Shown here: positions 10,510-41,488 of the stretch, piece after piece
How the letters are laid out: every line of letters starts with the position of its first letter
How positions within the stretch are numbered: position 1 is the stretch's first letter
Assembly (NCBI RefSeq): GCF_025989145.1
Contig: NZ_JAPDNQ010000001.1
Location: 620,001-684,000 of the forward strand
Source: Microbacterium sp. SSM24
GTDB lineage: Bacteria > Actinomycetota > Actinomycetes > Actinomycetales > Microbacteriaceae
Direction: 5' to 3'
Length of the DNA: 64,000 nt
Notes under the pieces: generated by a model
The model's input: the letters and a program-made list of their open reading frames with translations, nothing else
The model's database searches: none
Told to the model about the DNA's origin: nothing
Made by a program: the position numbers and the translations under genes

Positions 10510-10576
10510 CGCGACCGCTCCGCCGCCGCCCCGCGCGAGCCGCTTCCCTCCGCCCCCCCGGCAGATCCCCAACGCA

Positions 10577-10653
10577 GGAGATCTCCGGAGCACAGGAGGG
10601 TTCACCGAGGAACATCCTGCTTTCGGGAGATCTCCTGCTTTCGGGAGATCTCC
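10577..10653. repeat. Cluster of three GGAGATCTCC palindromes with an 18-bp tandem repeat
   Basis: GGAGATCTCC occurs at 10577-10586, 10626-10635 and 10644-10653. The last two sit in two exact tandem copies of the 18-mer TCCTGCTTTCGGGAGATC at 10615-10632 and 10633-10650. The gap 10510-10732 between convergent csoR and rarD holds no gene. Confidence 0.8.
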
Positions 10654-10732
10654 TGGGCGGACGATGCCTGCCCTGGGGGCCATGCCGGCCCCGGATGCCA
10701 CGGACGCCGGCCCGCGGACGCCGGCCTGTGCC

Positions 10733-40130: not shown

Positions 40131-40162
40131 GCGCACGGCGCGCCGCGCTCCCCCGCCCGCAG
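40131..40162 (+). repeat. Left direct repeat flanking the DUF559 module
   Basis: A 32-base block starting GCGCACGGCGCGCCGCGCT and ending GCCCGCAG. It matches 41456-41488 in the same orientation, with one inserted base and one substitution. Confidence 0.75.
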
Positions 40163-40196
40163 GGGATCCGCTCGTGCCGCGTCCCGCCCGGCCCGC

Positions 40197-40298
40197 CGGC
40201 GCATAACTCCTGCACTTCGCATGCGATTCGCGCAGCGCGACGCGACTTTCGGCGGTCCGGCGCCGGCCGGCCCGGCAAGGTGCAGGAGTTATGCGCCG
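40197..40298. repeat. 102-bp hairpin element, left copy
   Basis: Arms CGGCGCATAACTCCTGCAC (40197-40215) and its exact complement (40280-40298), with 64 GC-rich bases between. The same arms at the same spacing recur at 41310-41411. It lies 34 bases after the stop side of the nuclease-like gene, in the gene-free stretch 40084-40332. Confidence 0.9.
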
Positions 40299-40332
40299 AA
40301 CTAGGCAGGCCCCGGCTTCCCCGACCGTCCGC

Positions 40333-41193
40333 TTACCTCAGCAGACCGGAGCGCGCGACATCCGCCAGCAGGGCCTCGACTGCCTCTGGGTGGAAGATGA
40401 TGTCCTCGGCGAGCAGCCGAATCGTCGCGAAGCCGCGGCGCGCGGCTCCCTGGTCGCGCCGGATGTCCCTGCGGCGCTGACTCCAATCACTGTGATGGGC
40501 TCTGCTGTCGCACTCGATGATGAGCTTTCCAGCGATGAGGAAGTCGACCCGGCCCACTCCGCTGAGCTCGACCTGGACCTCGAAAGGGATGCCGAGCCGG
40601 CGCAGCATGAGCCGAACGAAGCTCTCGGTCCCCGACTCCGCACGACCGTCGACAAGTCGTAGCAGCACACCGTACTTGGCAGGAAGCGCGCGGAACAGCG
40701 TGCGCATCTCCGATTCGGACATCAGTCCGAGGTGGAGCACGCTGTCCAGGGTCGCGATCACCTCCCGTGGGGGTCGGCATGTCACCAGCGTGCGGATCGC
40801 GTCCTCGAGGCCAACGGCTTCACGGGTCGCGGGTGCGGTGAGATCTCCCCAGTGCACGCGAGCCACTGCTCCATGCACGTCTCTGCGCCAGCGCTCCCGT
40901 CGAGGTCCGGGACCGCGCAGGCGAGACATCTCTCGCCCCACATGGACATGCGCCCGCGCATCGTCGATCGTGAAGGCGCCGGCAGCGGCCAACGCTGAGA
41001 CGCACGTCATCCGGCCGCCGATGCGGACCGCGATATCGGCCGCCGGACTCGCGGTGCGAACGTAGTGGTCCCTCCTCAACCGGGTAAGCGCCCCGGAACG
41101 CACAGCGCGCGTGATGCCCTTCGGCGTGAATCCGGCCTCGAGCAGCTCAGCGCGAGTGACCACGCGCTCGCCGTCACCGGTGAAGTTCGACAC
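40333..41193 (-). CDS. AbiEi-type N-terminal domain protein with DUF559 (Vsr-like) nuclease domain
   Basis: A 286-residue protein. Residues 10-50 (VTRAELLEAGFTPKGITRAVRSGALTRLRRDHYV) match the winged helix of AbiEi-type antitoxins. The C-terminal 100 residues are a DUF559 PD-(D/E)xK-like nuclease domain: GRVDFLIAGKLIIECDSRAHH then RRRDIRRDQGAARRGFATIRL. DNA cleavage is plausible but unproven. No toxin partner is adjacent. GC is low: 113 of 180 hand-counted bases, against 127 of 180 in the acyltransferase gene, a sign of transfer. GTG start at 41193. Hairpin elements lie on both sides. Confidence 0.82.
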   Translation of the reverse strand: MSNFTGDGERVVTRAELLEAGFTPKGITRAVRSGALTRLRRDHYVRTASPAADIAVRIGGRMTCVSALAAAGAFTIDDARAHVHVGREMSRLRGPGPRRERWRRDVHGAVARVHWGDLTAPATREAVGLEDAIRTLVTCRPPREVIATLDSVLHLGLMSESEMRTLFRALPAKYGVLLRLVDGRAESGTESFVRLMLRRLGIPFEVQVELSGVGRVDFLIAGKLIIECDSRAHHSDWSQRRRDIRRDQGAARRGFATIRLLAEDIIFHPEAVEALLADVARSGLLR

Positions 41194-41239
41194 GTCCGAA
41201 CGCTCGCATCGCGGCCGAGGGCGAAATGATCGTCAGCCC

Positions 41240-41307
41240 TCGACGGTGCACAACCGCTCACGCGCGACGCTTGTGGAGAAGGCGACACCGCCATGGTGCA
41301 CCGTCGA
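41240..41307. repeat. Inverted repeat upstream of the DUF559 gene
   Basis: TCGACGGTGCAC (41240-41251) and its exact complement (41296-41307), 12-bp arms 44 bases apart, ending two bases before the right hairpin element. It may contain or control the promoter of the gene at 41193. Confidence 0.7.
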
Positions 41308-41309
41308 TC

Positions 41310-41411
41310 CGGCGCATAACTCCTGCACCTTGCGTCGTACCCCGCACACGCGTGCCGGGATCACGCGGATCGGATGCCGCGCGCACACGAATGTGCAGGA
41401 GTTATGCGCCG
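41310..41411. repeat. 102-bp hairpin element, right copy
   Basis: Same 19-bp arms as 40197-40298 (41310-41328 and 41393-41411) and the same 64-base interior length, but the interior sequence has diverged. The interiors share only short ends (CAAG next to one arm) when one copy is inverted. It lies 117 bases upstream of the DUF559 gene start. Confidence 0.9.
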
Positions 41412-41415
41412 CGGT

Positions 41416-41471
41416 GACCGGCGCCCCGCGACCGGCGCCCCGCGCACGGCGCCCCGCGCACGGCGCGCCGC
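41416..41471 (+). repeat. Four tandem 14-bp units
   Basis: GACCGGCGCCCCGC twice, then GCACGGCGCCCCGC and GCACGGCGCGCCGC. The last unit is the start of the right direct repeat and also occurs once at 40133-40146. Confidence 0.8.
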
Positions 41472-41488
41472 GCTTCCCCTGCCCGCAG
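41456..41488 (+). repeat. Right direct repeat flanking the DUF559 module
   Basis: Near-identical partner of 40131-40162; together they bound a segment of about 1.3 kb holding both hairpin elements and the nuclease-like gene. Confidence 0.75.

Follow-up and report, generated by a model that had tools for sequence, protein, structure and literature searches.

Bacteria of the family Microbacteriaceae appear to carry a two-part genomic system, to which we assign a probability of roughly 0.78, consisting of a gene for an AbiEi-type/EDxHD nuclease and a population of scattered inverted-arm DNA elements. The first part would be a protein whose N-terminal half is of AbiEi type and whose nuclease domain is EDxHD (Vsr/I-Bth0305I-like). 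The second would be a set of about 3 to 40 elements per genome, mostly intergenic, in each of which two inverted arms of about 13-20 bp are held at a fixed, helically phased spacing.

A nuclease gene between two arm doublets

The window, the whole stretch of 64,000 nucleotides of Microbacterium sp. SSM24 that was analysed, contains the following features.

40197..40298, no strand: element 1, an arm doublet of the long class (core-arm spacing 82), 34 bp past the stop codon of the nuclease gene
40197..40215, + strand: left arm of element 1, with the 16-bp core GCGCATAACTCCTGCA at 40199-40214
40280..40298, - strand: right arm of element 1, the exact reverse complement of the left arm
40239..40256, no strand: dyad centre of element 1, where the weak motif central to long-class elements falls; putative cutting region
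40333..41193, - strand: predicted nuclease gene, AbiEi-like in its N-terminal half and EDxHD/Vsr-like (MTES_1575/DUF559), 286 aa
41310..41411, no strand: element 2, also a long-class arm doublet (spacing 82), lying upstream of the nuclease gene at 116 bp from its start codon
41310..41328, + strand: left arm of element 2
41393..41411, - strand: right arm of element 2
41352..41369, no strand: dyad centre of element 2, gtgccgggatcacgcgga
40131-40162 and 41456-41488: near-identical GC-rich direct repeats of 32 and 33 bp

An earlier note on this DNA had described two 102-bp structures with identical 19-bp ends on either side of an AbiEi and DUF559 gene, and we confirm both the structures and the gene. 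The arm CGGCGCATAACTCCTGCAC is present in four exact copies in the window, at 40197(+), 40280(-), 41310(+) and 41393(-), and has no additional match there even when up to three mismatches are allowed. Dinucleotide shuffles of the window hold 0.02 copies on average, and none of 100 shuffles reaches four. Each doublet spans 102 bp, and the two interiors are seemingly unrelated to each other. Folded as single strands, the doublets give z scores of -6.9 and -5.6, each beating all 200 of its own shuffles, because their arms are complementary.

The product of 40333-41193(-) matches the Pfam families MTES_1575 (5e-9, slightly below the curated cut-off), AbiEi_4 (3e-5, slightly below the cut-off) and DUF559 (5e-5, above the cut-off). 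An AbiEi-like fold is present in its N-terminal half, and its nuclease domain has the Vsr/I-Bth0305I fold with the EDxHD active-site residues in place; E190, D217, H234 and D243 are invariant in 40 of 40 aligned homologues. The immediate neighbours of the gene are an acyltransferase (Acyl_transf_3) and rplQ (Ribosomal_L17). The low GC content once ascribed to the gene did not bear up, as its 67.6% compares with 68.9% for the window and 72.6% for the adjoining acyltransferase, and 113 of 316 windows of the same size have a GC content equal to or below that of the gene.

The flanking direct repeats are real: the two copies are one substitution and one insertion apart, and they are the sole two occurrences in the window at up to four edits. 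Their proposed role as borders of the module fell away, since no counterpart is found in the 2 kb around the orthologous block of Microbacterium sp. Root180 (L089) at up to six edits, and they therefore probably do not belong to the module. Elsewhere in the window, another inverted repeat lies at 10571-10657. Its arm, AACGCAGGAGATCTCCGGA, resembles the CAGGAG part of several other arms, and it is possibly a remnant or a separate family.

A family of scattered doublets

Across the 3.40-Mb SSM24 genome, the 19-mer has 63 matches at up to three mismatches, against 0 and 1 for the reversed-pattern control. The arms form 30 doublets (retrieved allowing up to four mismatches per core), including one degenerate pair within a predicted gene, with core-arm spacings of 70-71 in 11 doublets and 81-82 in 19. 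The pattern of conserved ends, free interiors and fixed length, first noted at the two window copies, is thus that of a genome-wide element.

Among SSM24 arms with at most one mismatch, 59 of 61 have a second arm within 130 bp, and the other two both have a degenerate partner. In Root180, 2 of 42 arms are unpaired at up to two mismatches, and for these two genomes the inverted doublet is firmly established as the unit. At the same threshold, unpaired arms make up about a seventh to a third of the total in G239 (6/30), G078 (6/40), G191 (13/45) and G076 (11/33). Same-orientation arms are clustered about 200 bp apart at G191:C65 93053-93472 and similar places, with no partner at up to two mismatches, which suggests local tandem amplification or decayed partners.

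Exact doublets were found in 56 stretches of GTDB species genomes, from Cryobacterium, Microbacterium, a Rhodoglobus MAG and a Microbacteriaceae MAG. With one mismatch allowed, the window arm is present in 26 of 299 Microbacteriaceae genomes, many with one match only. Doublets are nearly all intergenic. As judged with a simple codon-usage gene caller, those of SSM24 lie between tandem (11), convergent (9) or divergent (8) genes, with one intragenic and one unassignable, and those of other genomes between tandem (30), convergent (19) or divergent (8) genes, with four unassignable. The intragenic case (G000:C1 1722861-1722947 in SSM24) is a doublet-like pair with a degenerate left arm within a predicted gene, and Root180 aligns across this region without arms at up to two mismatches.

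The SSM24 elements (C1 426573-2461031) extend from -0.95 to +1.09 Mb from dnaA (C1:1373985), and the remaining 1.36 Mb or so is empty. Among the matches listed for G091 (C1 88946-1988295), the distribution around dnaA is similar. We rejected origin-centred chromosome sites as a general rule, as the matches listed for G048 and G009, where dnaA is unplaced, show no obvious fit. The sole Rfam match above cut-off across 13 loci is a guanidine-III riboswitch outside the elements (53 bits, L036 912-977, SSM24 C1 about 2349611-2349676). About 0.6 kb further on comes a group of short-class elements, and the Root180 sequence lacks the interval that holds them.

Probable phased half-sites rather than hairpins

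Pooling 84 non-redundant elements revealed a 16-bp arm core, then a T-rich/A-rich step, then about 20 free positions; most of these elements were retrieved by the exact 16-bp core, which in part guarantees an invariant core among them. In other genomes the outermost two core bases are variable. At the dyad of the long class, a weak symmetric motif of approximately CCCGCGGAATyNCGCGGG can be made out by eye in the pooled elements.

We collected 108 spacings from seven genomes, a set that excludes unpaired arms and includes some local duplicates. These fall at 68-71 (24), 79-84 (81), 90-91 (2) and 104 (1), leave 72-78 and 85-89 empty, and are best fitted by a period of 11.0 bp. One SSM24 element of 86 bp measures 98 bp in its Root180 orthologue. 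Column pairs in four length classes revealed no consistent covarying helix in the interiors (best z 1.9, taken without a shuffled null). The combination of helically phased spacing with no consistent covarying helix favours a dimer on double-stranded DNA over the folded hairpin that had earlier been envisaged as the recognised form. Two half-sites facing the same side of a duplex would produce such phasing, for which a folded single strand offers no evident reason. On the evidence of these sequences, the elements are likely recognised as double-stranded, dimeric, phased half-sites.

The centres of short-class elements often read CGACACG, with GACAC in 6 of 16 centres and 0 of 16 in the remaining interior. 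By eye, a similar string is also found inside G164 elements, whose arms are unrelated. Such centres recurring despite unrelated arms hint that the element centre may be read by the conserved nuclease domain.

Elements accompany the nuclease gene

Among the proteins encoded near doublets, nine clusters span three group labels, with the window DUF559 protein among them. The DUF559 gene has doublets on both sides in SSM24, in Root180 (L089, NZ_LMHS01000001.1) and in Cryobacterium Y11 (L084, NZ_PJJO01000055.1). In SSM24 and Root180 the module occupies the acyltransferase-rplQ locus; in Cryobacterium Y11 it has a class I tRNA synthetase gene on one side and an FGGY kinase gene on the other. The Root180 homologue (L089 4170-5024), 86% identical over 258 residues, changes frame close to its active site, beyond residue 231 or so, which reflects either a lesion or a sequencing error.

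When 299 genomes of the family were searched with an alignment of these three homologues, the five best-scoring homologues all came from arm-carrying genomes. A homologue of at least 276 bits is present in 8 of 10 genomes with at least five arms and in 8 of 289 others (p 4e-10), both cut-offs having been set after the data were seen. The exceptions are G193 and G008, which have arms and no high-scoring homologue, and G063, which has a homologue (312 bits) and no arms. Two outcomes that the earlier note had named as counting against a link, an arm that is local or one equally common without the gene, are largely contradicted by these counts.

Most homologues without the window arm are flanked by doublets of different arms. 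We inspected 50 homologue loci, 30 top matches and 20 of the next from 207 genomes with a match, a selection that barely covers weaker homologues. An inverted repeat lies within 450 bp of the gene at 39 of them. Altogether 69 repeats lie near genes (a few of which appear unrelated, for example two in L171), a single one in the more distant flanks, which amount to about 2 kb per locus, and 0 within genes; shuffles give about 2. Under relaxed rules, 43 of 53 family loci have a flanking doublet, 35 of them on both sides, and 10 have none detected. Three further family loci yielded a 12-bp repeat in one (L258) and none in two, and none of the three Pfam-level paralogues L101-L103 is flanked.

The association is that of one bacterial family. 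In a phylum-wide sample, 33 of 198 genomes, SSM24 counted, have homologues. Outside Microbacteriaceae, 3 of 29 loci are flanked, and at the other 26 the whole of the retrieved sequence is free of inverted repeats; several of these matches cover the nuclease end alone, so gene borders there are approximate. Since 43/53 was obtained under relaxed rules and 3/29 under stricter ones applied by eye, the comparison under the same rules is 39/50 with 3/29.

Arms read beside a gene recur in the genome of that gene. The arm beside the G164 gene has 76 copies in G164 and two single one-mismatch matches in the 298 other genomes. An arm common to G048 and G190 has 39 exact copies in G048, 6 in G190, 17 in G009, 7 in G130 and 1-2 in nine others, and the G009 homologue, which was not used in defining this arm, lies between two such elements (at most one mismatch per arm). 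A single genome can house two separate arm families: the second homologue in SSM24 (C1:2150990-2151802) lies between doublets with the arm TACCG[AT]ACTCAGGA, which has 20 copies in that genome at up to two mismatches, against 0 and 1 for the reversed control. Nine elements with this arm have spacings of 69-71 or 81-83.

Arm similarity correlates with protein identity across 41 loci (Mantel r 0.435), and also across the 34 that remain once window-arm loci are set aside (r 0.333), with 0 of 2000 permutations reaching the value in either case. Common descent alone could be sufficient for such a correlation. Overall, the pairing of protein and element is strongly supported, and the tie between element and DUF559 gene suspected from the window is upheld by cognate arms at the flanks of homologues and by second arm families.

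Mobile elements or binding sites

We compared the 30 SSM24 elements with the corresponding intervals of Root180. Fourteen have a counterpart in the same interval, 11 face an interval without an arm at up to two mismatches (two of these intervals are one-sided), two, which share a site, stand opposite a degenerate pair whose arms are of another kind, and three lie outside all of these classes. Over the 14 shared elements, identity is 442/447 in arms, 651/813 in interiors and 1222/1469 in the 60-bp flanks. Arms differ from interiors (p 6e-27), a contrast somewhat favoured by case selection because the counterparts were located via arms at up to two mismatches, and between interiors and flanks there is no significant difference (p 0.07). 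Arms are conserved, that is, while interiors drift like flanks. The positions of orthologous elements are also kept between Cryobacterium pairs.

Distant interiors in the SSM24 and G048 samples are no more similar than column-shuffled controls. In G164, two elements separated by 106 kb reach 68% interior identity, a level matched by the best of 200 shuffled sets, and near-identical interiors (84-100%) are found in local duplicates only. The interval alignments of SSM24 and Root180 are too diverged for target-site duplications or an insertion signature to be read. Spread, which the earlier note had suggested, is thus not borne out in the form of recent copying, the one borderline G164 pair aside.

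These data bear on what the population is. It could be a REPIN/RAYT-like or MITE-like mobile population, whose doublets the nuclease, by now domesticated, mobilises slowly in trans; we regard this as a real possibility, short of an even chance. Such mobility would fit a gene that adjoins its own doublets with one family per gene, a doublet that is the unit in SSM24 (2 of 61 arms isolated), a patchy distribution with presence/absence differences between two close genomes, module loci that differ among genera, and the G164 pair 106 kb apart with its 68% identity. It is harder to square with distant interiors that otherwise look like column-shuffled sequences, with near-identity confined to local duplicates, and with target-site duplications that are unreadable in the diverged Root180 intervals.

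Slightly less probable is that nothing moves and that binding itself is selected, the elements being operators or chromosome-organising sites of a domesticated DNA-binding regulator or nucleoid factor that retains its nuclease for some other purpose. Arms kept while interiors drift, helical phasing and the lack of clear distant copied interiors all agree with this, as do the positions kept in Cryobacterium pairs and for 14 of the 30 SSM24 elements in Root180, and the placement of all SSM24 sites within about 1.1 Mb of dnaA. However, SSM24 sites lie in every intergenic context (11 tandem, 9 convergent, 8 divergent), which argues against a simple promoter regulon. Invariant nuclease residues and the 11 SSM24 elements whose Root180 interval has no arm at up to two mismatches also speak against it, and among the G048 and G009 arms listed the origin-centred pattern is not obviously repeated.

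The earlier suggestion of a self/non-self tag of a defence system is now very unlikely. The protein does join an AbiEi-like domain to a nuclease domain, but its PADLOC matches are weak (best AbiEi, 1.4e-4), the genes flanking the SSM24 module are an acyltransferase and rplQ, and viral contigs hold no exact doublet. Phage or plasmid origin was likewise rejected, with 0 exact doublets in viral contigs and, for the protein, four weak plasmid records, one phage record and none in PHROGs.

That the elements are RNA hairpins or transcription terminators close to the ends of genes is, if anything, slightly less credible still. The elements are mostly intergenic, both window elements fold stably, and convergent placements outnumber divergent ones by 28 to 16 in the two sets taken together; yet the interiors have no consistent covarying helix, spacing is quantised, elements also lie between divergent genes, Rfam has no match to the element in 13 loci, and arms differ according to the neighbouring gene. 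A structured RNA was rejected on the same grounds, with no consistent covariation in four length classes and no Rfam match to the element at the 13 loci. That an unrelated repeat family stands beside the gene by chance might be read from the 2 of 30 SSM24 doublets that adjoin it, but is scarcely conceivable given 39 of 50 loci flanked, arms that vary by clade and two predictive tests passed.

Comparison with known systems

The classic example of a single-copy nuclease with a chromosomal repeat population of its own is REPIN/RAYT; RAYTs are Y1/HUH enzymes, kin of IS200/IS605, that go with single-strand hairpins. As set out in sections of two papers, a single-copy gene there lies beside its own inverted doublets, each gene has a separate doublet group, and the doublets are the unit, intergenic and long-persisting (PMC3116915, PMC8049555). 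The system described here shares with these accounts a gene beside its own group, a different group per gene, the doublet unit, intergenic placement and long persistence, so the comparison with REP and RAYT first made from the window is apt at the genome level. REP palindromes are typically tagged GTAG or CGTC, according to part of one account (PMC3733652), whereas the arm CGGCGCATAACTCCTGCAC, inspected by eye, lacks both tags in either orientation and holds no long palindrome. Also unlike REPIN/RAYT, the protein is EDxHD/Vsr-like and not Y1/HUH, the interiors lack consistent covariation, and the spacings advance in steps of a helical turn. Because enzyme family, arm type and likely DNA form all differ, the system is not a member of REPIN/RAYT. 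A RAYT was itself discarded as a candidate, the SSM24 genome having no Y1_Tnp (PF01797) match at E <= 0.001.

Unlike EDxHD homing endonucleases (I-Bth0305I), the protein here does not lie in an intron or phage, has an AbiEi-like N-terminal half, and coexists with about 30 intact sites that persist in the host genome. It also differs from AbiE type IV toxin-antitoxin systems, in that there is no adjacent AbiEii-like gene and the AbiEi-like half is fused to a nuclease. Vsr serves mismatch repair linked to cytosine methylation. For the Vsr-like DUF559 nuclease VsrA of Caulobacter, the sections considered of its report mention no repeat family (PMC12907096). The MTES_1575 (PF18741) REase, to which the window protein has a profile match of 5e-9, was named from a HEPN fusion protein of more than 2100 residues in Microbacterium testaceum, and the portion of the source that describes it draws no link to repeats (PMC3710099). 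In contrast to MITEs, interior sequence is shared here in local duplicates alone, the one distant G164 pair equalling the null maximum.

In the open-access literature, a scope outside which preprints and most subscription papers fall, we found no combination of DUF559 with 'inverted repeat', none of 'interspersed repeat' with 'Microbacteriaceae', and no description of this pairing of nuclease and element. Since REPIN/RAYT is alike in genome-level logic but not the same, we rate the kind as new and its genome-level logic as known. This looks like an undescribed partnership of a nuclease and a scattered DNA element.

A model for recognition and maintenance

EDxHD homing endonucleases have been reported as dimers on one unusually long site. 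By analogy, we infer dimer binding and cutting at the centre of the element. A protein dimer would sit on a single face of the double-stranded DNA and contact both arms of an element through its N-terminal and middle domains, bringing two nuclease domains to the dyad centre, where the weak motif is conserved. Elements adjacent to the gene may serve self-regulation of the protein or mark the boundaries of the unit. More speculatively, cutting or nicking at the elements might maintain them or slowly spread them in trans, in the manner of RAYT/REPIN.

Tentatively, and at slightly less than even odds, we propose that the AbiEi-EDxHD nucleases of Microbacteriaceae, each of which would dimerise on its own long-spaced, phased doublets and, by cutting them at the dyad, propagate or preserve them, make up an undescribed class, either selfish or domesticated. 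If true, the REPIN/RAYT lifestyle would have been invented a second time, independently and on double-stranded DNA; several families could share a genome, and recognition would evolve fast enough for a specificity code to be read.

A second, unrelated case would show that such pairing arises repeatedly. The DUF559/MTES_1575 proteins of these bacteria gain a testable target, the 41 arm-bearing homologue loci provide a data set for how an AbiEi-type domain reads DNA, and the presence of two families within one genome makes a clean orthogonality comparison possible. The partnership would also account for the patchy inverted repeats in Microbacterium and Cryobacterium genomes.
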